Shown piece by piece: positions 34,183-57,817 of a DNA stretch of 64,000 nt. Each line of letters opens with the position of its first letter. Position 1 is the first letter of the stretch. A model generated the notes under the pieces. That model did not search any database. It was not told the origin of the DNA and worked only from the letters and a program-made list of their open reading frames with translations. The stretch is from Xylogone sp. PMI_703 (lineage: Eukaryota; Ascomycota; Leotiomycetes): contig JAJTUQ010000011.1 of assembly GCA_021399445.1 (NCBI GenBank), positions 186,001 through 250,000 on the forward strand. Reading direction: 5' to 3'. Both the position numbers and the translations under genes were made by a program.

Positions 34183-36013
34183 CTATATTTGGACCTTCTC
34201 AAGCTGATCAATAATGTCATAAAGTTTTGAAGCGGTTTTGAGACTCTTCCTCGTATCCTTCTCTACCGAGCGGTTTACTGTGTCATCATCGTACGATACA
34301 GAGGCGTCTTCACGCCTTAGCGTTACGCGTAAGTCTTGCATGGCCCGGATTAAACCCTCTAACACATTTGACAGCCCACATAAGCGCCGCCGCAACAAAT
34401 GCATTAACAAAAACTTTCTGTCATCGCCAACAATAGAGTGCTGATCGACGAGTATACGCCAATCGCGGAGTTCGGAGTCGGAATTCATTTGCAGAAGGTG
34501 GTTGCTTGAAACAGTCCTTGGCGGAGAGGGCTGTTGTTCAATATGCTCTGTGCCGGTGCTGGTACGCTTTACTGATTCACTTCTTCGCCTAGGGTGTCCG
34601 ATACTATGGGAATAATACCCGTGTATGTGTGACATAGGCCTCAGAATATTGCGTTCATGAGGTATTAGCTGATGCGAACTGGAAAGAAGACGCTCGCGCG
34701 GCTTTTCCTGGAGCCATTCGAAGCCATCAAACATTGAAGATGACCACGGTTGTTGTAATTCTGGCAAGTCGCTGCTATTGGAGAATTCGGCATTACACAA
34801 TCGCTGAAGCAAATCCACCACATCGCTCATGGTATTAGAGAACAATTTAAGGATCTCTCCGCGACGGGCTTTACACGTATTGCATTGCACCGCAAGCGGA
34901 ACTGCTTCACGCAGCTGCGCCTCCACATCCAGTGCGAGACTTATTGCGCCCGGATAAGGGAATATATGGCCCTGCTCGATGCTAAGCGTAATGCTGAGGG
35001 CCGACTCGAAACATCGACAAACACTTTCTCGTTCTGGCAGCATAGCTCTATTTGAGAACCAACTGTACTGCCCAGAAACGTCCACTCCGTGCTCACTTGG
35101 TTCAATATGTTGCCCGAAGTTATGTAACGAGCTGGAATTATTAGTCAGGTGGTTCATGTCAACTCGGCGCGGATGTTCTCACCTTGATTGTCGATCTATG
35201 TCTGAATTATCTAACCTTCGCTGCGCACGAGCATAATTCTGGGGCGCCTGGATATCTTCAGTTAGCGATGACGCTATAGACGAGGTTGATATCCCCGAGA
35301 AATCCGCGGTCTCGAGGAATGAATTGAAAAGATCTAAACACTCTAAGTCAATTCGAATACACAATATGCAAGGAATAGATATGGGCTTGACTAGAAACGA
35401 ACCTTGGTCATGTAATTCCCATGTTGATAGTCGAGCTGAAGAAGGTGAAGCTGCGAGGAATCGCTTAACTCTCGGTGTTATTGAACAGTCATTTTGGCTC
35501 GTCTCTCGCCCCACGACATTATTCGAAGTATTGGACACAGCCTCCCTATCCTGTAAAATCGATCAAGCCGTTAGCCACAATCCAAAGGTCTGAACTAGTG
35601 GGGGCTTTTAAGACCAATCTCCAAATTTGAAGCGTGCCTCGGAAACATACATCCGTAATTACTCTGTCGTCGTCGAGTTCAACACCACTCCAGTCAACAG
35701 TACCAGAAGAGCTCTCTGGCTGGTTAACGCATGTACTTGCTGTGGGCTGAGGTGCCATTGGAATCGGCTCATCTGTTCGTCTCGCATGCAAAGGAGAGTC
35801 TGGTGTCAGTTGAGGCGCAAGGCGTCGAGGTCTGCCCATGCGTCGAGAAAGACTATAGTGACATGGTATATTCTGGGCCAAGCATCTTGCACAGGATGGC
35901 TTGCCGCGAGAACATCGCGTTTTGACCGCTTGACAAGCATCACAGGTTTGGCGTAGTTTTGCCTCAGTCGAGGTTCGTTCATTTGTGTTGGCACGGAGCG
36001 CCTTAGGTGTCAT
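34183..36013 (-). CDS. Zn2Cys6 transcription factor, AflR-like
   Basis: Three exons on the minus strand, 36013-35651, 35550-35183 and 35131-34183 (introns 100 and 51 nt), give 559 aa. The DNA-binding cluster has Cys24, 27, 34, 41, 44 and 51 in CX2CX6CX6CX2CX6C spacing, followed by a basic linker SRRMGRPRR. This layout near the N-terminus, with C-terminal [18 protein letters not shown] and MHLLRRRL helices, resembles AflR-family regulators. The second intron has a canonical branch site (CTGACTAAT) and removes an in-frame TGA. The ATG at 36013 is chosen over an upstream TTG. It is the likely pathway-specific activator of the maleidride-type cluster and marks its right border. The 100-nt intron is the weakest part of the model. 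Confidence 0.9.
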
Positions 36014-38275
36014 TTGTGATCGTGCCGGCAACAGTGGTAGGAGAGGTGGTGAGAAGGTGAACGGCTAAAGTAAGCGCAATCGACATTCGTGTAGCACTGG
36101 AGGTGAACTGTTAAAATATCGGGTAGAATCCGGGGTTCATCGTTGAGCAATGATTAGATGGCTGGAACCTCTTATAGCTACCCCTCCTTAGAAAACTAAA
36201 TGTCAGACGGATTCTTCCGCAGGCCCCAAAGTGATAGATTTGCCCAGCCGGAAACTATGATCGGAAGAGAAAACGTTCTGGGGAAACTGGACCCTGCAAA
36301 GAGGTGGTATCGCAGGAACTCGCATTTTCAACAGTGGAGCTAAGGCCCCTGTATTTTGTTATATGGCATCTTTACCGAACGAGCCGAATTGCTTGCTTGT
36401 TTACGCTGAATAGCATTACATTATCTCTTGGCTCAATTATGTAAAGCTTAGCAAGTTACTATCGAAACTCTATCCGATTATATTTGCAGACAAAGTCTTT
36501 GTTGCAACAAGACAGAAACCAATTCAAGAGCATTGCACAGCTCAGAACCATTCTATCCGTTGCGAATTGTCCTATCTTACAAACCATGGATGCGCACGCC
36601 GGTGACAAAAAGGTTGGCACAATCCCACCTTGTCGTTATCATGAACCTCGCAGAGATTCAATATCGAACATTGGTGATATGTACGCGTTTCGCCCTTTCC
36701 CTCGGAATAATCATGCAGTGATCCCAGCAAACGCATACTATTTCTTACACAAACACGTAAAAGGAGAGGGGCAGTATGGGAGGGGTGATAGCAGGGTTGC
36801 TAATCTCAAACGCACTTTTATGTTCTCTTGAGTACTATGCATATGAAAATCTGCATTGTTCACTCAACAAGTTTATGAATGAGTAATCCACTAGTGGATT
36901 CGCATTTGATTGTAATTCACTTCATACTACAGTTTGCTGCAGTGATCAACAATTTTCACTCTACTTTGTAGAACTTCAAAGACCGCTATTTCGACGATAT
37001 GATTAGCGGGGCCTTTTAGGAAAAGATGTACAGAGTAAATAAGCACGTGAATCATCTGTGTTTGCTGTTCAATTCGTGCTTTTGGATTGATGAGCCGATC
37101 CCTAAGTTGCGTAAGCAACATAAACGCAACGTATTGGACAAAGGACGATGTCACAATTTCAATCCTTGTATCTAATCGCCGTAGGATCTTCAGTATACGG
37201 AGATGCAGCGGTTAAGTATCTGCGCAGCACTAGCAGGGGAGAGGCTCGTTTGCCCTTATCAGTAGTTTCTCAATTCTTTCATAGCATTTGTAAATCGTAT
37301 GCCCGCTTTCTTGAAACTGGTGGCCCTTAATACTAGATATAGATAAGGTTGATGTTCGGGGATCAATCCCCTGCTAGTGCTGTGCAAATACGTAATCGCT
37401 GTCCCTCGGTAGTGACATATACGCTCTTGAGAACTCAACTATTGTCTAGTATATCGTCTTACTCATGCTGGGCCATAAAAACCGGTCTTGCCCGGAAAAG
37501 AGCGCAGTCCGCAGTCGGCAGTCCGGAGTCCGGAGTCCCCGTAACGGTCCGACAAGTCTACATAATATCAAGGATATCAATACCACATATCGTCATGCCG
37601 AGTTTGTACTATATTATTAAGCGTGCACTAGATCTACACTTGTGAACGGCTACAGGGTCACCCTCAGCTGGGAACCACATACAACAATTGCTTTAAAATG
37701 ACTCAACTCGAGGAGGAATCGCTTGTACAATGAATAATCTCCATGGCAAAGCGGGGATTACCCCCCAGACCTTCTAATGTAATAACAATGGCACGGTGAA
37801 CTTATTACTCTTTCCTCTGTCGGTAAGAACTAATTTAGTCCCTTCTTGAAGTGTCACCCTGAGCTTAAAACCGAATATATTGAGAAAGGGAATGAGTGAG
37901 TGCTATACAGGCACGTGATCTCTGGTAGCCGGTATGTAGGTGTGCAACGAACGACAACAACAACACCATACAATACGATCACCAATATCGTGATACTGTA
38001 GCAATCGTAAGGGAACCAATCAGAACTCGTATATCAGTAGAATAGGAGTGCAAATCGTTGTTGTATTACAATACCGTACGAACCCCTCCATATTGTTACG
38101 AACCTAAGTCTCTACCTAGGTCCTATAGAGTGTATAGGTATATACTAAGGTCGTAAAGGGGTTAGTGAGAGCTCGGGGATCAGTGCAATATAGTATATGA
38201 TCGTAACTACAATTGTATGGGTAACAATTATAGGCCGTCTACAGTACCTTGGCATACGGTTTAGGGTCAGAACGG
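36014..38275. other. gene-poor interval between clusters
   Basis: The first few hundred bases should contain the regulator's promoter. Beyond that I find only short frames without family pattern. Near 37500 there is a small run of near-repeats (GCAGTCCGCAGTCGGCAGTC). Confidence 0.4.
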
Positions 38276-40356: not shown

Positions 40357-41870
40357 ATGAAGCGACAGCGAGGACCTGAATCTGACAGCCGAGAGTCAAA
40401 ACCTAAACGGTCCAAAAATACCGAAAAGCTTTCGTCCAATGGAAAAGAGTTAAGCGGAGCAGCTAAGCCAAATCCTCCTCGAGAGTTATCAGTGGAGGAG
40501 TAAGCCAAAAAATATCTCCTGGGATACGCAGTAGTTTACGTGGGAATCCTTGACTCGAAGTGGAGTGATAACACTAATTGTAACTCTAACTTGACGTATA
40601 TTAAAGATTTACAGGAGAAGTTTCAGAGTCAAGGTCTAGACAGGAAGAATCCCAAGCATTACATCATTGCAAAAAGCAACGAAAAAGATGTTAATTGCAT
40701 GTTTACACATTTATGTTAACAAAAGAAGACTATAGCTCAGTTCCCCTTGATCGATCCGAATGCGGGTGAATATGTCTCCTTTCGTGAATGGAATACTGTC
40801 AACACGGAGAAGTTCTGATTAATCAATGGACAGTACTGCCTTGCGGCTCTCAGAGAAATTTGTCGTCAAAACCAGTGGCCGGACGATGAGTTATGGTGGG
40901 TCTGTCGAATATATAACAGCACGCTGCCTCGTGACCTCGAGGTTAGGCTTTAAGTCAATCGGGAGGATGCTACATTACGTGATAGCTGGGGCCGGATCTG
41001 GAATGAAGCAGTCCTGCTGGCAGAATGTAACTCGGAATATTTTCGGGGCAACAGCAACAAGATCAGGGAGGAAATGACCTGGCAGCTGCAGTTAAGTGGT
41101 GGCACTTCGATCAAACGACTTGTGACCTTCTCGCAAAATACTGGGTGGAAAGAGATGATCACAGATTGGTGTACTGCTGATCTGGGGGAAGTTACATTTA
41201 ATCCGTCAATCTGGGATGCAATGGCCCGATGCTGAACCGATGAGGTATATTACATCCATCGTCGTCGTAGAGTTTGCTAACGGATATTTAGTATTAGTTT
41301 TCCTTTCTTAATCAAGTTCTCGAAGTGATTCGGGCATTCGAGGATAATAGGATACTCGTTTCAGTTAAGGATCTAGAAATCTTGAGTTTTCTCTCCTGGC
41401 CCCGGTCTGCTGATGATGTCCAAGAACTATTTTATCCTAAAGAGTCAAACAATCCTGCCGAGGAAGTCGATGGTCCAATCCACCTGCGCACCCGGAAAGC
41501 CCACTTCCTGGCTCGTCTCGATGATGGTCAATATCAAGAGGCATGCGAGCTCGTCCAGAGGCGTAGTGAAATGAGGTTCATTGATATTGATTCTTATTTC
41601 ATCAACATCAAGAAACAGCAAGAAGTCATCCTCCCGGTTATGACTCACGTTGCGCACTGGTTAAACAAAAAGCCAGCTAAATGCAAACCCAAAGATCCTA
41701 AACAATATGGTTCAACGGATTCAGCCCCGACTCCGGGTTTTCTCACCGTCTTCGCTACTTCAGGCAGGCGGTCTCCTTATTTCGCATCTCAATTTTATTC
41801 TGCCTACTTTAATAAAGTTAATTGCAGTAAGATGATCGCTCCAAGGATACACGGACGCGTGTGTCGCGTT
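40357..41870 (+). pseudogene. decayed gene with a DGQHR-like motif, possibly DUF3723-like
   Basis: From the ATG at 40357 one reading frame runs without indels to a likely 53-nt intron (41245-41297, GTATAT...ATTAG). It is broken by five stops at 40501, 40717, 40816, 40951 and 41233. All are TAA or TGA and could derive from CAA or CGA by one C-to-T change. Around the third stop the protein reads LINGQYCLAALREI, close to the NGQHR-type motif seen in some fungal mobile-element proteins. Further pieces are WWVCRIYNSTLPRDLEVRL and VNREDATLRDSWGRIWNEA. The frame continues after the intron to about 41870 (FLNQVLEVIRAFEDNRILV, DVQELFYPKES). I cannot fix the family. The 3' limit is approximate because the frame stays open into the next gene. 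Confidence 0.6.
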
Positions 41871-41990
41871 ATGATGATCTTTCTTGTGCTTACTCTCATT
41901 TCATTGTATTCTTCTACAGAATTTCTCTTCTTTTTAAATTACATTTTGAATATATTACTACCCTCTTTATTTTTGTTCTTTATCTACATA

Positions 41991-44093
41991 ATGGACTTCT
42001 TACAATATAACCCCACTTATAAAGTCCTTATTTGCACTTCTTGCGGATATGCTCTCGTGAAGAACACGGTCAAAAGTCATCTGCTGAATGCGCACAAAAG
42101 CCAGCTGACTCTGAAGGAAAGGAAAAGCTGTCTCAAAGTTGTCCAGACGATGGATCTTGAAAAACCTGAGCTGATTCAGCAGCTGATTCTGCCCCCGAGT
42201 AGCCCGCCAATCCCTTACCTCACACTGTACTCTAATGGGATGGCATGCCAGCTCTGTGAGTTGCGGCCTTACGTCTGTTGCAGCGACCGGTCAATGAGGG
42301 AGCATTTGAAGGTGAAGCATGGCTGGACTCCTGGCGAGAAGGGTGGCCGGCCGACCAAAGCATCTCAGGCGGCACGCGCGCTTTCTAAAGTCACGATCGG
42401 CCCGGTCGCCTGCCAGACCTTTTTTCGGTGTAACTATTTTCGATTCTTCATCGTTACTCCGGTGAAAGACTTACAAGCTTCGGGTACTGTCGGTAGCCAC
42501 GACGCTAACACGGGGAGTTTGACGGTGCCTTGTCTCGAGGACCAGATCGCTCTTCAGCTGGCTCAGAAACTCGATAATGGCAATGCAGTATCTAGCCATG
42601 ATCGGCATTACACCCAAGTCTCCCCATGGCTGGATACCACTCAATGGGCTCGTTATACCAAGGGACACGATCTTCTAAAGGCTGCTCAGCTTATTCGCCT
42701 CCCAGACTACTGTCAACAAGTTGGATCTTCAAGGAAGAACACCATAAATACGGCAGACTATCACCTTCCTGTCATCCTAAAATCATTTGACCGTGTCATC
42801 GAGCAAGCCCGCACTTCACTCCAAGAAGATCGGATCAATGTGTTTGATCAACACCGAGTCAATGGATTTCTCCATCGTCGAAATGCTCCTCGCCCGTTGT
42901 TGTATAAACTGAAGGAAGAAACGTATAAAACATACAAGAAGGTCTGGAAACAAACAATTTCTCTGTTTCCTTTATCGACTTGTTTGGCAACGTCGACAAC
43001 CAGCATTGCATTGCTGTCTCACTGCTTCGCAAACTGTAGCACTTAGTACTGTTGTTGAGCGAGCTGCAGCAGTAATGCAACTGCAAGACGATGCAGATGC
43101 AAGCCACGAGTCAGGCGCTGCTCAAATCCAGGCTCTTGACGAGGCCACCCTGTTGCTAGGAATTGCTTTGTTAGATCATGCCCTTTATGGGGATATCTAC
43201 GATAGCGTTATCGTCGGGTTTCTGGCGGTCCTGGGTATTGGCAAAAATGGCTGTTTCGTCGAGCCTGCTAACTATACCTCCCATCTCTCTGCATTTATCA
43301 AGATTGCTCAGTTGCTTGTTGTCCAGAGATCCGTGCTTGCGGTAGACCTCGATGAGGTAGATCACGCGGCCGATATTCTCGATGTTATGCAAGACCGTTT
43401 TATAGTTTATGGGACCCGCTCGCCAATGAACTGGGCACAGAAGCTCCGGACGTATGGCAAGAAAATCCAGGATACAACCACGTCCTTAGGCCACATTGTC
43501 TGGACAGATGATGGCGAACAACTTACATACAAAGACTTTGAGGTGACGATGTCCAATCTTAAGTCCTTTGTCGCAAAGCAGGTAGGGCTCGCGCAGCAGC
43601 AATTACACGACCTGCTCCTGATTCACGAGGATGAGGATCGTGAGATTGTTGTCCCCAAATTCAACCTCCGCAATCTCAAGGACGATGCAAGCATTAGTGA
43701 GCCAGGATGGAACTTCCTTAAGCACAAAGATAATTCGATCTTGCAAGGCTATGATAATTGGCTCCTGGGCCGAGTGACCAAAATTGACTGGCTACACGAC
43801 GAGTTTCTCGAAAGCCAGCAGATTGTGAAGTGGAAAAAGAAGGCAGTTCGCCGTTATCTTGAGCAGGTAGATTCTTTCTCGAGCGACTTCTCCTGCTTGT
43901 CCATATGACTGCTGGTCAACCTGCGCGGGGCACTGAGCTTACGAGTCTGCAATTCTGCAATAGCATGCATGGAATCCGTCGGAGCATCTTTCTCGAGAAT
44001 GGCCTGGTTAGTTTTGTGACTTTCTATCATAAAGGCTATAGCATTCAAGGCTCAACCAAAATCATCCATCGGTACTCTACTCACTGCACTAAT
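41991..44093 (+). pseudogene. OrsD-like zinc-finger / telomere-linked-helicase-like fragment
   Basis: Starting at the ATG at 41991, the protein has an OrsD-type (DUF3505) cysteine/histidine region: YKVLICTSCGYALVKNTVKSH and later GMACQLC with MREHLKVKHGW. The frame shifts by one base near 42960, continuing as QRRQPALHCCLTASQ, then FIVYGTRSPMNWAQKLRTYG. It shifts again near 43885 into LLLVHMTAGQPARGTELTS and GLVSFVTFYHKGYSIQGS. That last block resembles the part preceding the helicase domain in fungal telomere-linked helicases. The helicase domain itself is absent; the frame stops at 44093 in unrelated sequence. It directly follows the decayed gene at 40357, so the two may have been one element. 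Confidence 0.65.
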
Positions 44094-44770: not shown

Positions 44771-45930
44771 CTACGGCACCTGGTCACGTTGGTTTACAAA
44801 CTCTCGGATTTGACCGTAGTTTCGACAAGTATGTATCTGGTCACTGTCAGTGTAATCACGCCCCAAGCTCGGATACCATTTGGTAGGAACGGGGGTTAAA
44901 TCAGCATTGCACATTATATATTGTCGAAGATGATCAATACAGTGATCTAGTAATAATTAGATCCAAGTCTAGGAGGATAAGTTTGAGAGATGGGGGCATA
45001 CCATAATGCAACCGGCCGAAATGGGGTTGGGGAAAATTCTCATAGTATTCCTTGTCGAGTGTTCTCCTGAGCATATCCTGAATACAAAATTAGTTCAAAC
45101 AATCAAGCAGCTTTCTTGTTTATAGGGGGCTGCAAGCCCTTACATACCACACAGTGAAGTGTATGCATGACGTCAAGGCTAGTTCCAGGTTACCGACATT
45201 AGTCTCTTCCTTTTCAAATCTAACACGTATAAAGCATGGTTGTGGTTATCAGTTGTTGAGTTCTTACCCCGCCACATAAGAAATATCTCCTCTCATTTCA
45301 TAGTGAAAAGCTTTGTATGAATCACCCCATGCGTCTTTGGCTTCATCTTCTGTTATGTAAAAATAACGACCTATTGCAATCATTTTATGATCATAAGTTG
45401 TAATAACGAAGGAACTTACCTCCAATCAATTCTTCCCATGCCTCATCAATTTCAGGGTTGGCTGGTCCAGCATACGTCTTCCCCCCCCGATCAAAAGTGC
45501 GACGCATGGTACCATTCCCATCCATCTCGATACCACCATAAAATTGTGTCGAGTGCAGAGATATCGTGGAGCGGATAGGAACTAAAAGGTAAATAAATAT
45601 TAGCGCCGATTATATATATTGCTCGTCTCTACCAGTTTATTTTGTAAAGGGGAAATAGGTTTCCTTACAAAACTCCGTGGAAAACTCGTGCTCATATGAA
45701 CACTGAGTCCTGCTAAAAGATCTGGCCGATAAGACTAGCAAAAGACACAGTGATAGAATCACACATAGTATCCAAGGCAAAAACACACTCAGGGACGACC
45801 CATCGCGGACTTTGGACAATTCATGTTTCTCTATACAAGGCGAATTAGATTCATCATGAGCAATATCATCATCGCGAATAGGATTGTAGGGAAAATCAGT
45901 CCAGGGAAGGACAATAGAGGGAATCTTCAT
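44771..45930 (-). CDS. UstYa-family (DUF3328) oxidase-like protein 1
   Basis: Six exons on the minus strand, 45930-45669, 45581-45420, 45370-45268, 45178-45148, 45077-45002 and 44946-44771 (introns 87, 49, 89, 69, 70 and 55 nt approximately), give 269 aa. A single membrane segment (SVFLPWILCVILSLCLLLV) follows a cytosolic N-terminus. The two signature HxxHC motifs are HTLHC, in a 31-nt micro-exon, and HYDHC, created by the last splice. The end is typical of the family: IDHLRQYIMCNADLTPV and IHTCRNYGQIREF. UstYa-type proteins install side-chain cross-links in fungal ribosomal peptides such as the dikaritins. The gene lies 4 kb left of the repeat precursor at 50232 in the same cluster. Every motif falls in frame only with this splicing. 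Confidence 0.88.
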
Positions 45931-46109
45931 GGTTTTTCTCCTGTTGCTCGTGTACTTTTGCAATAGATTCAACTTGTGATGTTGCCTGGGTAAGACAGCT
46001 GAGTATGTTATGTGGTACCGTGTTCTTTCTCTTTGATTAACTAATGTTGTTTGGGACTGAATGACCGTTCTTATGCAATAGTATCACGTCGGTCTCGCTT
46101 CTTCTTTAA

Positions 46110-46190
46110 TGTAATTCCCGCTTGGTCGGGACACCCGGTCTAACGGGACACTGAAAATTTACCGCAAAATCGAGCAAAACTGGCCCCCCA
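46110..46190. mobile_element. remnant end of a Fot1/MITE-type element
   Basis: The stretch starting TAATGTAATTCCCGCTTGG and continuing through CACCCGGTCTAACGGGACAC and TTTACCGCAAAAT resembles the terminal repeats of the elements at 51144, 57384 and 57831. I do not find a matching opposite end nearby. Confidence 0.6.
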
Positions 46191-46666
46191 GCAAACTCTA
46201 TAATTACACTATTACATGCAATTTTGGAATCTAGCTATATTATTACTATAAAATAATTCTATGAATTCTAATGTTACCACTATTTGTAGATTATGCTGTA
46301 TAATCAAATAGACTGGTATTCAGAGTCTAAAAACAAGTCTAGTCATATTACAAATACTTAAAGGTAGTAAAGTTGATATTTCTACTCCGCTCCGTATGTG
46401 TCATCATCGGACTAACACCGATCCCTGTCGATGATCTGTCTCTAAGAGAGCATATACTACATTAGGTATAACTAGAATTCCTGAAAATACAAGGCCTGAA
46501 CAACATCTTCTTATCAAGTTTAGACTGTAATGGTTATACAGTCCCCTTGTCTCTAGTTTCGGCCCTTCAGCTTGTACACATAATTCTAAGCTCTGAAGTG
46601 TAACGTATTTCCAACTCTCGGATTACCCAACTAATATTGTTAATTAGCCTACAAAGTGTTATTCTA

Positions 46667-46702
46667 TACTGTGGTACGGACGTACAGGCCCGAATAATCC
46701 AC
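46667..46702 (+). repeat. partial copy of the hairpin repeat at 55225-55341
   Basis: TACTGTGGTAC, then GTACAGGCCCGAATAATCCAC, matches one arm of the 55225-55341 inverted repeat with few changes. Only one arm is seen here. Confidence 0.5.
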
Positions 46703-47085
46703 TATTACTCTGCTGTATGCTTCCGAAGGGGCGGCACGCAATCAACCGACCGGGGTCTGATATCCTCCTCGGCTCTTTTCACTTGATAAAATGTACGTCT
46801 TAGGTGGTTAAATTTCTCGCTGACACTTTTAGAAACCAGCCGCGAACATATGCAATTAATGCGTCAGTTTACATTGCCGGGTGCCAGATCGTTCTTAACC
46901 GGACCTTGCAGGTCATGCTTTTTAGTCGCCAGTCTATGCTGTCCCGATAATGCGTGAAAGTCTAAGTATATCGTCTAGGGTCTAGTCATGATGCTATTAA
47001 TTACCATATGTCTGGTATCTATTTTATTTAAAAGGCATTGAAAGAGGGGCTGATTAATATCTCCCAACTTTTTCGTCGTGGATCC

Positions 47086-48127
47086 CTAATCTACAATGGT
47101 AAGGCTACCGTTGACTACGCTTTCGATAGTATCAAACCGAGTGCTATGTGATGTTGCCCAAGCATGAATCCTGTCGAAATTTCTACAAGTATGGGGAGTG
47201 TCCGTCTTTAGTATAATCTTAGACCCATCAAGTAACCATTCCATGGGTGTCAAATCTGCATGGCACTGAAGGGCTTGTCGGATCTGGTTGATACAGTGGC
47301 CTACGCTGATGGGTTATTAATCATTCATGGTATCGAAAGTATATGTAAAACAAACCTATGTGGTGTACGCGTGATGGATCTGTGGGATTGTTGAAAACCT
47401 TTTTATAATAATCAGGGTATAGTGCTTGACGGAGACGATTCTAGTAAAAGCTATCAGCCGTGGTATCCTTGAAAATGTTCAGATGAAGGGCTGTGTTACC
47501 AAACAATGGAGTGAATGATATACATCTAGCCCGCTGAAATAGAGGCCTGATTCTGGCCATTGGAATGTTGAATTAGCGAGGTCTACCTCATTTTTATTCA
47601 GATCAAGATTCAGGCCTAGGCGGTTGTAAGAATATCTCTTTTCAACTTATTTGGAGACTAACCATCCATGAGCTTCCCCCATGCTTGATCAACCGCTGGT
47701 GAGGGCCGTCCAACATATTCGTGTCCATTTTGGTCTGCGACAAAGTTGCCTTCGCCGTTTAATTCGATCCCTCCAGAGAAAGGTTTGACAACTAATTCGA
47801 TCTCACTTTTGATGGGTCCTAACAAGGGGTCAATTCTAGAACAAATAAAATATCAATATCAGTATGAATACTGATCTGTATGTACATACCTAAGTCTGAA
47901 GTGAATCCACTCTCATATGATACTTTAGCAGCTAGTTCTGGTTTATAAGTCACAGAGAAGAAAAGGCCAAGAATTATTAAAAATACATTCAATGAGACTG
48001 AGATAATGAGAAAGAAAATTAAGAAACTTTGGTCTCTCTTTGGTGATACTATTGACATCTCAATAGCTCCTAGCAGATTCTCCTTCTCTTCTTCTCCCAT
48101 ATCGTTATTGTACGAGACGCTAGACAT
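47086..48127 (-). CDS. UstYa-family (DUF3328) oxidase-like protein 2
   Basis: Five exons on the minus strand, 48127-47890, 47818-47663, 47615-47500, 47440-47356 and 47300-47086 (introns 71, 47, 59 and 55 nt), give 269 aa. A membrane segment (FLIFFLIISVSLNVFLIILG) lies near residues 35-60. The first splice gives TSDLGPIKSEIELVVKPFSGG, the family entry motif. HSLHC ends exon 3 and continues as LNRLRQALYPDYYKK; HIGHC is created by the last splice and leads into INQIRQALQCHADLTPMEW, then DTPHTCRNFDRIHAW. This is the most typical UstYa protein of the window. It is likely to modify the peptide encoded at 50232-50622 in the secretory pathway. The first intron must use the second AG (GTTAG) to keep frame. 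Confidence 0.91.
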
Positions 48128-50231
48128 AATGACCTAAGAGGGCAAGGGTAATCAAAGCTGCCTTTCGAGGAATCAACGATAACCTTGATAAATATTTGGT
48201 ATGCTGTCTTTGGTAGTCAGGGACAGGAATTGGTTATTTTGCATGTCGTTGTCTCTGGTTAGTCAGCCTGGTTTATAGAGTGAACAGAAACATGTAGTCT
48301 AGAAAACTTCTAAGCTGACAATAGAAGGATGGATTATAAATCGGAATTAACGGAAAGCATATATGAGGACCAAATACACTGTCAGGATATATGAAATAGC
48401 AGGTTTTAGTATTTGCTGGATCGACCAGTTACTGCTCGATACACCCTACAATAGTACTTACCCTACTTGTGTCGTTACTCCTTACTTCTATATACGGTTT
48501 AGCCTACTAGATGAGACGATCTGCATCGTAACGGATTTCCACAGCAATAACTGGTTGCGGAAATGCCGAGAGATGCGTTCATGCAACAGTAGCGAGAGTG
48601 TATTCCCTGCATACAATATATCAATGTTTACAAGGAATAATTCAGGTATATAATATAATTGAGTAAGCTGACATCCTAATTGAGGAAAGATATAGTCACT
48701 ATCATCCAATGGAAACGATATACGTTGTAAAGATAAGCGATCCTGTTCTCTGATTAGTGTTGAACTTCTCATTTACTCCTTCAGGTAATTGAGGTCTTTA
48801 CACTAAGCCTGTAAGCATTTTGTACTCCGTAACAGCGATGCAACGCCGGTTCTTCCGTTTCTTCCGTTTCTTACGTGTACTGAACGAATGTAACACTAGC
48901 AAGGGCGCTCTTTACACACCATCCTTAACACGCCTCCTGTGTTGCGAAGCTGTCGGAATATATGCCAGCTACACTAGTTATGCCTAGCTAGTAGCTTGAT
49001 TTACTACACTGTAACATTTGGTGGTCAAGTTAAGATTTGCACACTATTGGCTTCATGTAGAAAGTACCAACAGTTGTGTCAGTTGGTTAATTAAACGTTA
49101 TCTTGTGGCGTAGACTAGTATTGTATCTACGGAGTATTTATGGTGAATTTTAAGACAAGCTTCACTCAGAACTTGCTACGGTCATGAGCGAGCAGTCCCC
49201 AAATGAAGACTTCTCGAAATCCCTCCATTTGTTAATGTAAGATGCTAAATTATGTGAGCAAGATCCACTGTCGGAGATTTAAGCGTAAGAAAGAGGTTAG
49301 TTCGCATTTATGCGAACTATGGTGATATGATTCTAGAGTGTGTAGTATGGGATTGCCTAAATCTTCCTAGGTCAAGGAGCCAACTGTAAAGTAATTTCTG
49401 ACATCCACAGTTAGTATTTGCTTTAAAAAAAATAGATTTGTAAATCTACTGCTTCATAAAGAAAGTAACCGTACCTGTTTCAATATTAGTAGAAGATAAT
49501 TTAAAAGCCGCCTTTCAATCTGTCAGATTTAGTTAAACCTACAGTAAATGTACGGGGGTTCTTCCATCCTGGGCCATATTATAGTACTCAACCACACCTC
49601 CACATCTCTGTACACTCCTAGGAACAATAGAGCTTCCCGACTATAATATTAAAAATCCGGAAGATAAGCGTGCTCATCAATGTGGAGATGTGAGTTTTTC
49701 CGTCCTGTCACGTAGTACATAATATTCACTCTCACATTTCCTCCTCCCTCACAAGGATCGTAATGAGAAGGAGATAACGCTAGTTTATCCTCTACTTGAA
49801 ATATGGGTAGTGCGGTACTTTTGCTATTGGATGAACAAACTTCCCTTTCAAGAACGTGTCATTTATCTCCCGTCCAGTCTATTCAGGACCTCATGGTGAC
49901 CGAGGTAAGTGAGACACTCATGCCGGTTTGAGCCTTTTACAACTCGCTTCATGGATAGATAATAGCGGTTAGCAGGTTTATCTCTATCTAAACTATGCGA
50001 ATTTAACACTAGTGTAATCGAGTGAGAAAGCACGTAAGATAGCCTTTCCAAGATGGGATATAATGAGCAAGATAGACACCCCAGATGAGAGGAACATGAG
50101 ACTGCATATAAATGACTCTTATTCCCCAGGTTTTAGAGGATTCAGAGTCTACACACAGTTTTATCTTGAGGTAGAAATTTTTACATCCATTTAGAACCCT
50201 TACCTTCAGAACCGCATAATAACCAGCAATC
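48128..50231. other. intergenic region between UstYa-like gene 2 and the precursor gene
   Basis: 2.1 kb between divergent genes, so it should carry both promoters. Short pyrimidine-rich near-repeats (TTCTTCCGTTTC) occur near 48850. The open frames at 48363-48772 have no family pattern. Confidence 0.45.
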
Positions 50232-50622
50232 ATGAGATTTTTTGAGTACAGCATCGTGGCAGCAGCCTTGTTTGGTAATGCTATTGTAGCAGCACCAACT
50301 GAGAAGATGGCTTTGGTTCGTGGATCACTCGCTCGTTCTCGTTTCCTTAACTTGTCCGTGTCTGACCTTGATGTAGAGCATCGCACAGCGTGAAGCAGAG
50401 CCCCAATTCAGCAACAAAGATTGGAAACGAGAGGCAGAAGCCCAATTCAGCAACAAAGATTGGAAACGAGAGGCAGAAGCCCAATTCAGCAACAAAGATT
50501 GGAAACGAGAGGCAGAAGCCCAATTCAGCAACAAAGATTGGAAACGTGAAGCAGAAGCCCAATTCAGCAACAAAGATTGGAAGCGCGAGGCGGAGCCCCA
50601 ATTCAGCAACAAAGATTGGTAG
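50232..50622 (+). CDS. repeat-containing, Kex2-processed secreted peptide precursor (RiPP-like)
   Basis: Proposed exons 50232-50315 and 50377-50622 give 109 aa. Exon 1 encodes a signal peptide (MRFFEYSIVAAALFGNAIVA, then AP) and TEKMAL. Exon 2 encodes SIAQ and six repeats of 13 residues, KREAEAQFSNKDW; the first begins with R after Q and the first and last have Pro in place of the second Ala. KR is a Kex2 site and EAEA a Ste13-type dipeptidase spacer, so mature peptides would be QFSNKDW or EAEA-extended forms. The exon 1 frame alone stops at 50391. A 61-nt intron (donor GTTCGT, CTGAC branch site, acceptor TGTAG) joins the frames; its weak donor is the uncertain point, and a frameshift is the alternative. 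Four UstYa-type genes flank it, as in dikaritin clusters. A pheromone precursor is the other reading. Confidence 0.78.
50389..50619 (+). repeat. 39-bp tandem repeat, six copies
   Basis: The 21-bp core block (CAATTCAGCAACAAAGATTG plus G) is identical in all six copies. The 18-bp spacer is identical between copies 1-4 and differs synonymously before copies 5 and 6. The first spacer is partial. Confidence 0.95.
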
Positions 50623-51143
50623 ATTGCAAGATAGTGTTAGCAAGACCGTTATATAGGCTCTAGACAAGCCAAATTATCGTTGTACATTTCGATGATAGCC
50701 TATTTTATTGCTCAGACTTCAAATTTACACTATTATGGATCTATATTGTTTCATAAATGGCATAATGTTGACTTGTATAAATTTTCGATAAGAATTATTT
50801 GATTTGCAATAAGTACTCTTATAAGTAGGCACCACATATGTATGCATAACATATATAATCACAGGCATGTATGTGAAGGGTTTTATACATAACTGTATTA
50901 AATATTAATTTGTTTCTAACTCCGGAATCGTGTAATGGGACTATATTGATTCAGCGCCTCGAAGCCGGACTTCGGCTCCAGGACGAATAATTCGCGCCCC
51001 GGCCAATCTCAAATTCCTTGATGTTACAGTAGTAATACAATTAAGTGGAATTCTTTATAGCCAATAAACAGGGCGCTAAATTGCGTGTCCCTGTTATGCT
51101 TACGCAACCGTAGACTCGCAGCGACAGTGGAATAAGTCATTTG
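50623..51143. other. intergenic region downstream of the precursor gene
   Basis: 521 bp, AT-rich near the start, then GC-rich around 50955-51005. Nothing recognised. It ends at the transposon stack. Confidence 0.45.
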
Positions 51144-51419
51144 TAACGTAATTCCCGGTCTCACCGGCCACTTGGTCTGCCCGGCCACTTGAATTTAGGG
51201 CAAAATTGAGCAAAATCGCCCCCTAGCAATATCAACAACTACACAACTACATACAACAAAGGCAATTTTACTTAACTATATACTTACTATTAAGTATGTA
51301 CACTGATTTTAGGATAACTAACGTAATTCCCGGTCGGTCGAGCCACTTCCTCACCAAAACACCAATTCTATGAACACCACCAACTTTACTCAATTATTAT
51401 TCAACCACAACACGTCAAA

Positions 51420-53500
51420 ATGCCTAAATTGCCACCTCCAGAGCAAGAAGGGAGAATCCTTTTAGCTATAAACGCGATAAAAAGTCAACAAATCAAGTCT
51501 ATTCGAAGTGCAGAACGTATTTATGACGTCCCTCGTGCAACACTTAATGCGCGTTTGAAAGGCCGGGTCCAAATAGCAACTACCTACAACAAAAGCTTCA
51601 GAATGACTCAAACAGAAGAGCAATCGTTAAAGCGATGGATCATCTTTATGGGGAAGCGCGGATTATCTCCCAGACCTTCAGGCGTACAAGCAATGGCTAA
51701 TTTGTTGATTTCTGAGCGTGGTGAATCTACTCCTTTATCTCCAGTGGGCAAAAATTGGTTCAGTGACTTTGTGAAACGTCATCCTGATCTCAAAACTGAA
51801 TATATACGTCGATATAACTATAAACGGGCTAAATGCGAAGATCCGAAGATTATTCGACACTGGTTTGAGCAAGTATTAGCAATCAAAGCTGAATATGGGA
51901 TTTTGGATGAGGACACTTACAATTTCGACGAGACTGGCTTTGCTATGGGCACAATTGCTACTACTAAAGTAGTCACATCTTCTGATTGTTTTGGCAAGCC
52001 TCCGCTTTTACAATTTGGCAGTAGAGAGTGGGTTACTGTAATTGAAACAGTGAACGCTACTGGATGGGCAATACCACCTGTGATTATTCTCAAAGGCAAG
52101 AGAACTCTTTGTAACGTTCCTACAAGGGTATGGGGTTATCTATCACTCAAATGATAGATGAAGGTAAAGGGCAAGAGAATAGCTTCACAATCTTAGGATA
52201 GTTACCATGAAATGCAGGTATGCTGTAAGTCAATTGAATTGAGCACAAGGCTCCTATCTAATGTAAACTATCTACTTATATAGAGAGTGGATTTCTTAGA
52301 GTCTCATTGATCCTTCGGATCAGAGAATCTAGTCGGATCATTAGGTTTCGTCCTGATCCACTTGCCTAATCCAGGTGCTCGCTTAATTGCTAGTACTAGC
52401 TTTCTGCACGTACAAGCAAATAGTTAGCACAAGCGGAAAGGTAGTACTATTTCTCCGATAGTACTACCAACCTAGTACAGAGGCCGTAGAACCTGGTCGC
52501 TTGTTACAACCCTGCGGGGTCGTAACACTCTTGAAGGGTGGTATGACAACTTACCACAAGGTTGGAGGCTTACTGCAAGCGATAATGGCTGGACAAACAA
52601 TGAAATTGGTTTTGAATGGCTTCAAAAAATATTCGATCCATACACCAGATCTTGTACGAAAGGTCAATATCGCATGCTGATTCTTGACGGCCATGGGAGC
52701 CATGTGACCCCTCAGTTTGACCAGTATTGCCTCCAGAACAAGATAATTGTGGTCTGTATGCCTTCACACTCATCCCATATCCTTCAGCCATTGGATGTGA
52801 GTTGTTTTGCTGTTTTGAAGCGATCATATGGTGCCATGGTAGAAGGCAAAATGCGACTGAAGATTCACCATATTGATAAGTTTGATTTTGTGGATGTATA
52901 TCCAATTGTACGTCAAGCCACTTTCACAACGAACAATATTCGTCAAGGATTTGTAGGAACAGGCTTGATTCCATACGATCCGTGTTATCTAAATTGCGCG
53001 TAGAGGTGGAGGAGACTATTACCCCCCCTGGGAGCGCCCATAACAATACTAATACAGTTTGGGCCCCTGAGACACCTCATAATTCAATCCAATTGCAAAA
53101 GCAATATGAAGTGATTCAATCTATGCTCAAACAATGTGGGAATAACCCTTCTACGCCTACTAGAGCGGCCCTACAGCAATTAGTTAAGGGGTTCGAGGAG
53201 GTCTTGCATAACGAGATATTTTTGACCAAAGAAGTACAGCAATTGAAGGACGCTGTTCAATCTTTACAGCAAAAATCTAAAAGATCTAGAAAGCCAATAC
53301 CTCAAAGTGGCTTGTTAACGGCAGAGGAGGCCCAGCAAGCACTTCAATCGCATACAGTAGCTCAGGAAGGAGTAGTGGGGTCAAATCCTTCAGCATCTGA
53401 AGGCGATTTGTCAGCACCAAAGCGACGGCCACCAAAGTGCTCAGAGTGTGGAATTGTAGGCCATAAAAGGAACAAGTGCCCTAATTTAGCTAATAACTAG
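51420..53500 (+). pseudogene. Fot1/pogo transposase, interrupted
   Basis: The N-terminus has helix-turn-helix/CENP-B-like DNA-binding regions (IRSAERIYDVPRATLNARL and WFSDFVKRHPDLK). The DDE domain shows Asp in YNFDETGF, Asp in LILDGHGSH and Asp in LQPLDVSCFAVLKRSYG. The C-terminus has a zinc knuckle, CSECGIVGHKRNKCP. The solo LTR at 52110-52527 splits the gene after KGKRTL; beyond it the frame resumes as EGWYDNLPQGWRL. A separate single-base frameshift near 52980 moves the end of the protein into another frame (from IPYDP to LSKLRVEVEE). The copy therefore cannot make a full transposase. Confidence 0.9.
52110..52527 (+). mobile_element. solo LTR inside the transposase gene
   Basis: The 418-bp insert begins TGTAACGTTCC and ends GTCGTAACA, so it has TG...CA ends with a short imperfect inverted repeat. 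It is flanked by a perfect 5-bp duplication, CTCTT, at 52105-52109 and 52528-52532. No internal retrotransposon sequence remains. Related fragments lie at 58333-58530 and, inverted, at 59030-59090. Confidence 0.9.
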
Positions 53501-54019
53501 ATATATTGTAATATAGGCGTTGGTGGTTGAATATTCAGTATTTTAGATTCAGATGGTGGTGAAAGTGGCTCGACCGACCGGGAATTACGTTAGTATTAAT
53601 CGATTATGTAATACTAGCATATCTGCACAGTTTTGCGGCCTGAAATCATGACTAATAGTATTCTGGATATTTAGGAAAAGAACGGAGAATATATTCGTAG
53701 TTAGATTGGCTTAATTAGCTCTATACCAAAAGTATATCTTGCGTGGCCGTGTAGTTGTTGATATTGCTAGGGGGCGATTTTGCTCAATTTTGCCCTAAAT
53801 TCAAGTGGCCGGGCAGACCAGGTGGCCGGTGAGACCGGGAATTACGTTATGACAGGCTTACCATTAGTCAGGGAACACGGATGAAGCTGCTGCATCAAGA
53901 TGAAAGTAGGCAGGCTTAATAATGTGGTCAGATAGCATACTGGCAGTCGCAGAGAGATTTTCTAACTGCTCAGTTCAGTCGTTATTTTCTTCTACCTGGC
54001 ACTTCATAACAATTCTAAA

Positions 54020-54736
54020 ATGTGGTTTACAAAAGGAAGCTACGGCTCCCTGAAAAACTACGAGCCGGATGAAGACCAGACCGAAAAAGAAGACGTTTCC
54101 AAGCGTGATTTTTTTTCACCGCAGCCCGTGGAACGACGATTTCTTGGTTGGATATCTGCCCTGCTGCTTCAACTTGTTCTTCTCGGTTCTGGGCTTCTGA
54201 TATTTTCAAAATCGTTCACCATACCACTCACAGATCTCACCTACGCAGTCCTTACTGCAGACAATAAGTCTTTTCCTTCAGGCCAGCTGACCTGGTCACA
54301 ACATTTCGAACCTCTACCGTGTGGGACGACGCCTTCAGAAGCGCTCGCTCGAGGATGTCACTTTGATATGATCGCAACGGCGTGGTTGCCACCTAGGTGT
54401 ATCGATTTCCAGCTTATCGATGAGTTCATGGCAGCAGGTCACTGGGATTTCTATACTACAAGGAATGGGACAACGCGATACTCCAATGAGCCGGACGTAC
54501 TAGGCTCTCAGACAGGCCTTATTTGGACGACAAATCGCTGGCACGCTGTACATTGCCTCTACATGTGGAAGAAACTCAATCGCGCGCTGGTAAATGGCTG
54601 GTCGACGGACGCTGAGACAGTCACGCAGTCTCACACCGGGCATTGTATCAAGACAATCGAAGAGCTCTTCCTCGATCGGACGGTCGACCCAGATAAAAGA
54701 CAATCAATCATGCAGGTCATTTATCCCCCATGTTGA
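54020..54736 (+). CDS. UstYa-related single-pass membrane protein with two HxxHC motifs, 3
   Basis: A single exon of 238 aa. A hydrophilic N-terminus of about 45 residues precedes a membrane segment (WISALLLQLVLLGSGLLIF). Then follow CGTTPSEALARGCHFD, ATAWLPPRCID and WDFYTTRNG, features of a common fungal family that I cannot name with a symbol. It ends with HAVHCLYMWKKL and HTGHC, the paired HxxHC arrangement shared with UstYa proteins. I infer a distant UstYa-like oxidase acting in the secretory pathway. It starts 170 bp to the right of the transposon stack and could belong to the peptide cluster. The link to UstYa rests on the motifs and topology only. Confidence 0.75.
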   Translation: MWFTKGSYGSLKNYEPDEDQTEKEDVSKRDFFSPQPVERRFLGWISALLLQLVLLGSGLLIFSKSFTIPLTDLTYAVLTADNKSFPSGQLTWSQHFEPLPCGTTPSEALARGCHFDMIATAWLPPRCIDFQLIDEFMAAGHWDFYTTRNGTTRYSNEPDVLGSQTGLIWTTNRWHAVHCLYMWKKLNRALVNGWSTDAETVTQSHTGHCIKTIEELFLDRTVDPDKRQSIMQVIYPPC

Positions 54737-56482
54737 GCTTTCTGTACAGTTAGTGAGCGATAAGGATATACGGAATCCGGGCGAATTTCTGTCTCAGCGA
54801 CCCTCTCACCCTGTCTTACACAAGTTCACTTATCTCAAATGCAAACAGCTTTATAATCACGAAGTCAAGTGAATCAATCTTTAATACAGAAATATTTTAA
54901 AGGCGAAAATTCTATTTAATTGAAAATATTTAACTCTATATTATTTACCAATACAGTACTACTGGTCCACTGGGCAGAATCTCCTATGACACATCTACAA
55001 ATCGCGGAAAAGGGTCTTGTACTTATAGGAATAACAATTGCTACAGTGCAAAGCAATAAGACGAAAGAGATAAAAGACTTTTTGTCTAAAGCCTAAGGAT
55101 GTATGAATATCAAAACCCTTAACTTTTGAAGTCAAAGACCTGATTTACAAGTATTGATCTGCAGCCGATATAGTTTTAGTAATAACCGGGCCGAGATGTA
55201 AGTAGTTTACGGCGACTGTACTTCGTACAGGCTCGAATAAACCACACTTTCCTGTCTGTGCTTTATTACCCAAGAAGCACTTTTCCGTAGTATTCTACGA
55301 TTGTGCACAGACAGTAAAGTGTGGTTCATTCGGCCCTGTACCACAGTATTCACACAAACACCACAGTATTATAAGCGGATTTCAAAGGCGTTGATGGCTG
55401 AGTCTTGTCTTGATTATTGCTAGAGTAAGTGGTGCCTGGTACTTTTGTGAGTTCGGTCGCGGCGCCTCGGTGAAAATGCTCCACATGCCCGTACTAAGCG
55501 CTTACGCTACTCCAAGCAACAATGATGCCCTACCATCAGTCAAGAATAATCCGAAAATTAAATTTATCCCCTCACATAAGCAGGCGAGCGGGGCAGCAGA
55601 GACCCGTGACGATTGGTGGACACATGGGTGAGTTTTGAAACTAACTGCCCACTCAATCATTCTATGTAACCCCGAGCCGGAGCAAACCCCTCAATTTACA
55701 ATAGTACAACACGGTATTCCTTCCCGGTTGGTGCTATTTTACTTGGAATTCCGGAACGATTTTCCCTGGATACTTTGTATTCCAAGCGTGATCGAACATC
55801 CAGAAAGAAGACTGGAAAGATCCGCAGGGCATTGACCCATCTATGGTACATGCTTACTGTGCATTAGCGTTCTACGGTATTGCGTACCTCTGTGCTATTG
55901 TGCACTATTGTGCTACTACATACTCCGTAGGTTAATCTTGCGAAGACGATCGCCGAGTAGGCCGGAGATCGGACCTTAATATCGTTACCTATTGCCTATT
56001 GGGACGTCTCTCGTCTGCTGTTTGAAACGGCCTAGTTCATTACTCTTTCGCTACCCCTTAGTACAACTCCAACCAGGAATTGTAATACAGTCGCGTTGTG
56101 TGAGCAGGGTAGTCGATTTAGTTTAATTCTTTCCGAGTATTTGTCATAATAATCAGTCCCGTAGTCGATCAGCACAGTGAGACATGAATAGTACTGTAAA
56201 CTACAGCGGCAAAACATTCATGCAGCACCAGCAAGGGAATATTATGCTTGCCTATACCAGATAGTAGTCTTCACAACTCTCAGCTCTTCTGGCTGAAATG
56301 GTGTAAATCTTACCGTTAAATACGAATCACAATACTAAGTAAAAAGGGGCACTCCCATACTCACCAAATTTGCATCATCTCTCTCTGGTCCTTCATCGGC
56401 CAACCGGATACTGGCAGTTAGCATTGAAGTCTTCACCACACGAAAGCCGAGCTCATTTGAAGTCGCAGTTCATACGAAGATT
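54737..56482. other. intergenic region, 1.7 kb
   Basis: It contains the hairpin repeat at 55225-55341 and should carry the promoter of the next gene. The short frames at 55410-55835 show no family pattern. Confidence 0.5.
55225..55341. repeat. hairpin/MITE-like inverted repeat of 117 bp
   Basis: The arm at 55225-55261 (GTACAGGCTCGAATAAACCA...) pairs with 55305-55341 (...TTCATTCGGCCCTGTAC) with few mismatches over 37 bp, leaving a 43-bp loop. A single-arm copy occurs at 46667-46702 on the other side of the precursor gene. Confidence 0.75.
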
Positions 56483-57121
56483 ATGGCACAATATTCACCA
56501 CTAAGATCAGGGATTAGTGAGGATAATCACGAAACCCATGTTGAATCCAGCACTCGAAGATCTATTTATTTGATCCTAAGAGTAGTAGTTTTTTGCCTCG
56601 CACTGTATGGCTCGCTGGATCTTGGGAGGAAGGCCTGGCTGTCATTGAGTCGCCGAAGTTCCTGTTCTTGTGGTCAATCACCAGCTGAAGCTATTGCGCG
56701 AGGCTGTAAGTTCGATCCCTATGCGGCCGCTTGGTTACCAGATCATTGTCGCGATGATAGCCAGATACGGGAATTTGGAGAGATGGAGGCACTCGGGAAT
56801 AGTTCCTGGAACTTCTATGATTATTCCGGTAGAATCAAACTCACGGTTGAAGAAGTCGCGATGATGGCTGGGGTGGTAAGTATCAGTGATCACCAGAAGG
56901 GTGAAGCGATGGTCAAAACTACTACGAAGTGGCATCATATGCATTGTCTCTATATTTTATTGAAGGCAGCTCGGTTAAAACGTACGGGATTAGCAATGGA
57001 GCCACGATATACAAAGGAATCACATACTACACATTGTGCTAAAAGCATCTACGGCTGGATTAGCGCACAGCCTGCGGCACACATATTGGATAGTGAATCT
57101 GAAGTTGATATATATGCATAA
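56483..57121 (+). CDS. UstYa-related single-pass membrane protein with two HxxHC motifs, 4
   Basis: A single exon of 212 aa from the ATG at 56483. The membrane segment is IYLILRVVVFCLALYGSL. It shares CGQSPAEAIARGCKFD, AAAWLPDHCRDD and WNFYDYSG with the protein at 54020-54736, and ends with HHMHCLYILLKAARL and HTTHCAKSIYGW. Thus both HxxHC motifs are present. It is a diverged relative of that gene in the same orientation, 1.75 kb away. A role in modifying the peptide precursor is inferred from motifs and position. Confidence 0.75.
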   Translation: MAQYSPLRSGISEDNHETHVESSTRRSIYLILRVVVFCLALYGSLDLGRKAWLSLSRRSSCSCGQSPAEAIARGCKFDPYAAAWLPDHCRDDSQIREFGEMEALGNSSWNFYDYSGRIKLTVEEVAMMAGVVSISDHQKGEAMVKTTTKWHHMHCLYILLKAARLKRTGLAMEPRYTKESHTTHCAKSIYGWISAQPAAHILDSESEVDIYA

Positions 57122-57383: not shown

Positions 57384-57817
57384 TAACGTAATTCCCGGTC
57401 TCACCGGCCACCTGGTCTGCCCGGCCACTTGGATTTAGGGCAAAATTGAGCAAAATTGTCCCCTAGCAATATCAACAACTACACCGTCGCACAAGATATA
57501 CTTTTGGTATATAGCTAATTAAGTTGATCTAACTGTGAATATATTCTTCTTTCTTTTCTTACATATCCTGAATACTATTAGACATGATTTCAGGCCGCAA
57601 AACCATGCAGATATGCTAGTATTACATAATTGATTAATACTAATTATCTTAGAATCAGTATACATACTTAATAGCAAGTATATAGTTAAGCAAAATTGCC
57701 TTTATTGTATGTAGTGGTGTAGTTTTTAATATTGCTAGGGGACGATTTTGCTCAATTTTGCCCTAAATCCAAGTGGCCGGGCAGACCAGGTGGCCGGTGA
57801 GACCGGGAATTACGTTA
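57384..57817. mobile_element. intact 434-bp MITE
   Basis: Terminal inverted repeats TAACGTAATTCCCGGTCTCA at both ends, with long subterminal complementarity (through GGCAAAATTGAGCAAAATTG). Its inside corresponds, in inverse orientation, to both halves of the split copy at 51144-53849. It has no open frame. TA flanks both ends. Confidence 0.9.

Follow-up and report, generated by a model that had tools for sequence, protein, structure and literature searches.

Organization of the locus

We analysed a 64,000-nucleotide stretch (the window) of Xylogone sp. PMI_703, positions 186,001 to 250,000 of contig JAJTUQ010000011.1 (C3; C1, C5, C19 and C21 are further contigs of the same genome). Xylogone belongs to the Leotiomycetes, and PMC10381127 describes one Xylogone species as a mycoparasite. 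The window carries a gene for a repeat-containing precursor peptide flanked by four genes, G1 to G4, whose products each have one N-terminal hydrophobic segment (assigned by eye) and two HxxHC motifs (Table 1). A first-pass annotation had proposed a ribosomal-peptide cluster of the dikaritin kind here; our spliced models and motif counts confirmed its coordinates, its repeat precursor and its four genes with two motifs each. Two further precursors of the same family were found elsewhere in the genome, and each has a UstYa gene and a G4 orthologue of its own within about 8 kb.

The precursor gene and its predicted cores

The precursor ATG begins a hydrophobic leader, MRFFEYSIVAAALFGNAIVAAPTEK, which we called as a signal peptide by eye. 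The frame opened by this ATG runs for 53 codons to a stop at 50391-50393, and the repeats lie in a different frame. A predicted 61-nt intron with a GTTCGT donor, a CTGAC branch-like site and a TAG acceptor connects the leader frame to the repeats. This intron was selected from 28 listed donor/acceptor pairs able to join the two frames because of its signals and because the identical splice position is possible in both paralogous precursors, which can each be spliced after codon 28 (nucleotide 84) with a TCTGA(C/T) site and an acceptor into S[IA]A[EK]REA. Alternative acceptors are possible in the window and C1 precursors, and the C21 precursor has one under the filter used. We infer from these features that the precursor is spliced in vivo. 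We judged a broken frame or pseudogene unlikely, as all three precursors can be opened by an intron placed at one and the same codon. No protein of the public gene set of this genome was among the listed matches of the precursor search, which drew on at most 7996 candidates.

Tandem Repeats Finder described the repeats as a 39-bp unit in 5.8 copies, with 94% matches and a score of 387; the two remaining tandem arrays of the window scored 51 and 67. The predicted product thus has the architecture of a Kex2-processed repeat protein (KEP), with a leader and repeated cores between dibasic Kex2 sites. The first-pass description, a signal peptide followed by six KR-EAEA-QFSNKDW units, held for the six cores but had to be amended elsewhere: the intron is needed to reach them, the spacer is EAEP in 2/6 units (in order EAEP, four times EAEA, EAEP), and QR, not KR, precedes the first unit.

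The three precursors contain 6, 6 and 8 units. Their predicted cores are QFSNKDW in the window and QYRNADW and QFRNTDF (one unit QFRNTNF) in the paralogues, with Gln 1, an aromatic residue at 2, Asn 4, Asp (once Asn) 6 and an aromatic residue at 7 kept throughout. X-Ala or X-Pro dipeptides alone stand between the cut and the core Gln in 20/20 units, a result in which the spacer test alone could have failed, as the expression that split the units already demanded the core shape. X-Ala/X-Pro is the specificity described for Ste13 in passages of PMC6339444 and PMC9769878. The spacers therefore imply trimming by a Ste13-type peptidase and predict cores that start with Gln. For the window precursor they favour QFSNKDW without EAEA, where the first-pass annotation had allowed for both forms.

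Two types of HxxHC protein

Judged on sequence criteria, G1 and G2 are classic UstYa proteins, and G3 and G4 belong to a divergent type that lacks introns and scores near the Pfam limit. The curated PF11807 cut-off is 25 bits, and G1 and G2 score well above it, G3 just above and G4 just below. The G2 model is identical to the public protein F5884DRAFT_869229 (P0015) of Xylogone sp. PMI_703 over the full 269 residues, and a public relative of G2, P0016, is 79% identical. The earlier label of four UstYa-type genes is therefore right as to the two HxxHC motifs in each and too uniform as to type.

In AlphaFold2 models the paired HxxHC motifs of G2 and G4 are predicted to lie on two successive helices, and the N-terminal helix spans residues 33-60 in G2 and 16-45 in G4. 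The G2 model was built from 35 sequences (predicted local distance difference test score, pLDDT, 78.0) and the G4 model from 5 (pLDDT 66.4). The motif starts are 29 residues apart in G1 and 32 in G2. Among frames of at least 60 residues from the window and 13 loci, the starts were exactly 30 residues apart in 10/10 two-motif frames, one of these being a 410-residue frame without the Cys signature. In G4 numbering, the ten G3/G4-type rows picked have C63-G64, A70, G74-C75, D78, W84 and C89 in common, along with both motifs. In 35/35 classic rows a C-terminal block after the second HxxHC (C211, D214, P217, H235, C237 and R238 in G2 numbering) is invariant; across the same rows the first His of the second motif falls just short of full invariance. 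The block was not seen by eye in the ten G3/G4-type rows, and G3 and G4 fall outside the classic subfamily; G4 ends 27 residues past its second motif.

Seven of ten aligned G3/G4-type proteins matched PF11807 at E <= 1 (best 1.1e-5). When their profile was compared with that of the classic type, the alignment covered 65 columns in the region of the motifs (E 1.9e-5, probability 77.5%). Solved structures gave no convincing match by sequence or by fold (none at E <= 0.001), and NCBIfam gave no match for the 5 proteins submitted. A protein search with G4, which used shared 5-residue words only, returned the window's own protein, two Xylogone PMI_703 proteins and one metagenome protein. An InterPro group that takes its name from phomopsin biosynthesis may cover the G3/G4-type proteins, and a literature search on its identifiers gave nothing useful.

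The aligned G3/G4-type proteins are encoded without introns. Searches of the genome with G3 and G4 found 41 distinct places, a few of them fragments. Twenty-six of the 41 lie within 5 kb of one of the 108 PF11807 matches, against 0.52 expected from coverage (midpoints), 31/41 within 10 kb and 33/41 within 20 kb. Duplicated places are not independent, so binomial values overstate the significance and the count by locus is safer: 18/24 G3/G4-type loci lie within 10 kb of a PF11807 match. The association was weaker in the reverse direction, as 18/48 classic UstYa loci had a G3/G4-type neighbour and 30/48 had none. At C19:2205-2208k a G3/G4-type gene and a UstYa gene enclose a different repeat precursor, which has five SSGTAVGPVAEEVV-type units; this unrelated precursor occupies C19:2206849-2207340, and its five units can be written SSGTAVGPVAEEVVE[TN]YD.

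Three copies of the gene set in one genome

A precursor search of the genome gave two further close precursors, on C1 and C21 (Table 1). A classic UstYa gene and a G4 orthologue are present in all three loci. The genome search found only three G4-clade genes (70% identity or more), one next to each precursor; the match to G4 that follows them in score has 38% identity. Precursor and UstYa gene stand head to head in 3/3 loci, and G4 is on the opposite side in C3. G4 pairs gave synonymous divergences (dS) of 1.08-1.55 and nonsynonymous to synonymous ratios (dN/dS) of 0.11-0.15 in a simple Nei-Gojobori count, which is rough at such distances. On these ratios G4 is under purifying constraint, and the changed gene order together with dS above 1 indicates that the linkage outlasted a long divergence. 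Among frames of at least 35 codons, convincing matches across the three neighbourhoods were the precursor, UstYa and G4 types and a UstYa first exon in C1 and C21; a few others were short and weak. In C21 this first exon is a remnant of another UstYa gene at 2833.0-2833.4k, between the precursor and the G2 orthologue, and no more exons of the remnant gene were recognised. The C1 locus has two more UstYa genes and a Zn2Cys6 regulator.

The precursors also share an upstream element. A segment, TAGTGCGGTACTTTTGCTATTGG, is identical between the C3 and C1 promoters, and the 20-mer TGCGGTACTTTTGCYATTGG was found in three places in 50.1 Mb at <=2 mismatches (0 for the reversed-pattern control). These places are at -375 to -421 before each precursor, on the same strand relative to the gene. 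As the pattern was derived from the precursor promoters, the informative result is the absence of any fourth match. The 20-mer was not found upstream of G1-G4; this suggests that the precursors are regulated together, without the enzymes. A 24-nt segment upstream of G2 (window 48661-48684) and of the C21 G4 orthologue (C21:2837414-2837437) was not used, since four more copies with 2-3 mismatches suggest a dispersed repeat.

The three loci bear unequally on the four flanking genes that the first-pass annotation had taken as members. A classic UstYa gene and a G4 orthologue recur at all three precursors, and comparative support for G3 was not found: the paralogue most similar to it, C1:818729 (73%), stands 194 kb away from the nearest PF11807 match, and a repeat precursor was not visible in 9 kb around that paralogue. 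G2 and G4 are the best-supported enzymes, G1 is a probable one and G3 a doubtful one.

A more distant repeat protein with GSTGSNPDW units (-NPDW) was found at C1:422591-422914. A frame with -GADW/-GSDW units at C1:2620707, 2.4 kb from a UstYa match, matched weakly (E 0.038) and was not counted in the precursor family.

Table 1. Features of the precursor locus and of its two paralogous loci. Positions are those of the window unless a contig is named.
Feature	Position	Strand	Details
G1, classic UstYa-family	44771..45930	-	269 aa, 6 exons; PF11807 143.1 bits
G2, classic UstYa-family	47086..48127	-	269 aa, 5 exons; PF11807 141.1 bits; head to head with precursor
Upstream 20-mer TGCGGTACTTTTGCTATTGG	49811..49830	+	-421 to -402 from precursor ATG; common to three precursors
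Precursor gene	50232..50622	+	Predicted exons 50232-50315 and 50377-50622, intron 50316-50376; 109 aa, leader and six QFSNKDW units
Tandem array	50395..50619	+	Tandem Repeats Finder; encodes KR, EAEA or EAEP spacer, core
G3, short intronless HxxHC protein	54020..54736	+	238 aa, single exon; PF11807 25.8 bits; membership doubtful
G4, short intronless HxxHC protein	56483..57121	+	212 aa, single exon; PF11807 24.0 bits; orthologues adjoin all three precursors
C1 precursor	C1:8783333-8783742		
Classic UstYa gene beside C1 precursor	C1:8786.3-8787.5k		
G4 orthologue, C1	C1:8790945-8791574		70% identity to G4
C21 precursor	C21:2829929-2830388		
Classic UstYa gene beside C21 precursor	C21:2834306-2835340		G2 orthologue
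G4 orthologue, C21	C21:2837638-2838267		74% identity to G4
Nested transposons	51133..53860	.	Between precursor and G3, not cluster members; inverted repeats; transposase frame of the Tc5 type (HTH_Tnp_Tc5 35.3 bits)
Transposon arms	outer 51133-51244 / 53749-53860; inner 51317-51348 / 53563-53594		Inverted repeats

Interpretation and alternatives

The locus is probably a small, tyrosinase-free dikaritin-type cluster that makes an oxidised Q-[FY]-x-N-x-D-[WF] heptapeptide. The precursor would enter the secretory pathway, a Kex2-type protease would cut after KR, and a Ste13-type dipeptidyl aminopeptidase would strip the X-Ala/X-Pro spacers, freeing six QFSNKDW peptides, possibly with an N-terminal pyroglutamate. 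Membrane-anchored UstYa-family proteins, acting as putative copper oxidases, would then modify the core, with the conserved aromatic positions 2 and 7 as the likeliest sites of oxidation and of any cross-link. This interpretation is well supported as to the kind of cluster; its chemistry is proposed, as is any activity of the peptide. The dikaritin-like cluster of the first-pass annotation is thus borne out in part, by the three intragenomic copies of precursor, UstYa gene and G4 and by the tyrosinase search: tyrosinase (PF00264) has 13 matches genome-wide and none on C3, in agreement with the earlier remark that no such partner is visible.

Several observations weigh against this cluster reading. 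The C21 precursor has a tyrosinase match about 26 kb away, so its locus may not be tyrosinase-free. The G2 type is present in only 2/3 loci, the C1-locus UstYa gene looks closer to the decayed C21 first exon, and the enzyme genes lack the upstream 20-mer. G1-, G4- and G2-like genes stand together within C21:2511001-2520000 (C21:2513-2519k) with no repeat precursor in 14.5 kb, where an intron-split or single-core precursor could escape, and a G2-like gene on C5 has no G4-type or precursor match within 9 kb. Fourteen precursor matches were listed, and all 7 that carry an organism name are from mushroom-forming or related basidiomycetes.

These matches bear on a rather unlikely alternative, that Kex2 and Ste13 alone release a linear, hormone-like -DW peptide, as in mushrooms, and that the UstYa neighbours act elsewhere. 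According to passages of PMC9769878, the peptides released from basidiomycete Ste13-type repeat proteins, for example QYKAPSW and ...AADW, are indeed linear or pyroglutamated, and no UstYa match was seen in the 10 kb examined around the -NPDW repeat protein at C1:422597. The close precursors behave otherwise: 3/3 have kept a classic UstYa gene and a G4 orthologue despite changed order and dS above 1, and the loss of UstYa neighbours from a conserved precursor, which the first-pass annotation had named as a result that would count against a cluster, was seen in none of them. The two ideas are also compatible to a degree, as passages of PMC7329392 report DUF3328 neighbours for 17/76 repeat proteins related to putative basidiomycete pheromones. 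It is very unlikely that the three loci are simply old segmental copies in which the enzymes travel along without acting on the precursors. Block duplication would yield paralogous genes in three places, and the 20-mer does mark precursors only, but the neighbourhoods otherwise share little, their order differs and G4 appears to be under purifying constraint.

That the precursor encodes the mating pheromone of Xylogone is scarcely credible, even with its Kex2 and X-A/X-P architecture. Ascomycete alpha-pheromone cores are of the Cys-paired WCxxxGQxC type, and Cys is absent from QFSNKDW, QYRNADW and QFRNTDF. Three paralogues with different cores and the presence of UstYa neighbours also speak against a pheromone, and in passages of PMC7329392 213/216 putative fungal pheromones have no UstYa neighbours. 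A genome search for the exact WCxxxGQxC pattern found one site, in a frame that is not a repeat protein, and located no canonical pheromone gene; as the pattern ignores introns and variants, this is a weak test.

Beyond the cluster reading, we consider one broader proposal improbable but worth stating. The G3/G4-type proteins might be a largely unannotated second half of the UstYa system, short partners in hetero-oligomeric copper oxidases with classic UstYa proteins. One such pair in Xylogone would oxidise a Q-Ar-x-N-x-D-Ar peptide similar to the -DW signal peptides of basidiomycetes, possibly as a means of imitating or disturbing mushroom signalling.

Surroundings of the cluster

Of the 33 window frames of at least 130 residues, 10 were scanned for domains together with G1-G4. 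Methyltransferase domains were found in this set solely inside a large polyketide synthase gene at 7228-15272 (ketosynthase, acyltransferase, dehydratase, methyltransferase and reductase domains), and a major facilitator superfamily (MFS) transporter was found at 28401-29675, 15 kb from G1. MmgE/PrpD, isochorismatase-like and MFS genes lie at 23.7-29.7 kb. The polyketide synthase region is probably a separate cluster. A Zn2Cys6 frame is present at 35549-36064, and the frame just left of G1 (41298-43043) has an OrsD-type match (PF12013, 64.5 bits). Just right of G4, a short element at 57384-57817 carries inverted arms of 102 nt (97%), and the outer arms of the nested transposons (51133/53860) are of this kind too. 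Elsewhere in the genome, tyrosinase matches near UstYa matches at C1:8096533, C1:8102267, C19:6466760 and C5:319853 are candidates for fuller dikaritin clusters.

Comparison with known systems

The dikaritins ustiloxin, phomopsin and asperipin-2a share with the window a leader, repeated cores with Kex2 sites and UstYa/DUF3328 genes beside the precursor. Compared by description, the window differs in a core without Tyr, a contig without tyrosinase, X-Ala/X-Pro in every unit and two short G4-type proteins. As given in passages of PMC12048977, a 2021 definition takes a DUF3328/UstYa protein with two HxxHC motifs as the class-defining enzyme; G1 and G2 fit it strongly, and G3 and G4, with the same two motifs, straddle the PF11807 cut-off. 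An older five-gene definition cited there names tyrosinase, methyltransferase and transporter or peptidase genes, and the window departs from it in the tyrosinase.

Umemura 2020 described the same precursor/DUF3328 partnership: in passages of PMC7329392, 1758/7878 Kex2-processed repeat proteins adjoin DUF3328 genes. Since such precursors beside UstYa-type genes are already known, the cluster is not categorically new. Judged on the main text of that survey of 838 types, where 'KDW' and 'NDW' do not occur, the window family appears distinct in its core Q-[FY]-x-N-x-[DN]-[WF] and its three intragenomic copies. The basidiomycete Ste13-type peptides (QYKAPSW, MSGVAADW; passages of PMC9769878) are alike in X-A/X-P spacers, in some cases an N-terminal Gln, and a C-terminal Trp, often as -DW. 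They differ in being linear or pyroglutamated, and DUF3328 has 0 occurrences in those passages.

CctR, a DUF3328 family hydroxylase, is described in passages of PMC12435403 as a binuclear copper enzyme that uses its HxxHC motifs. A single membrane helix and an HxxHC(x)nHxxHC arrangement on two paired helices are common to it and the predicted G2 and G4 models. Unlike the proposed window enzymes, CctR has a non-ribosomal peptide as its substrate and works as a disulfide-linked homodimer, and G4 differs from it in being short after the second motif, without the classic C-terminal block.

No description of this cluster was found among the journal papers listed by the literature searches, which is no proof of absence. 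The peptide family and one enzyme type look undescribed. What marks the cluster as a variant is a precursor family in three copies with a core pattern of its own, a contig without tyrosinase and a G4-type partner kept in 3/3 loci. The short UstYa-like family adjoins classic UstYa genes far above chance in this genome and lies mostly near or below the Pfam cut-off, so surveys based on PF11807 would overlook a large part of it. A single genome in which three cores go with shared enzyme types offers a natural comparison for assigning roles to UstYa-type proteins. Oxidation of the core, if it occurs, would mean that dikaritin-type chemistry also reaches Tyr-free cores and Ste13-processed precursors.

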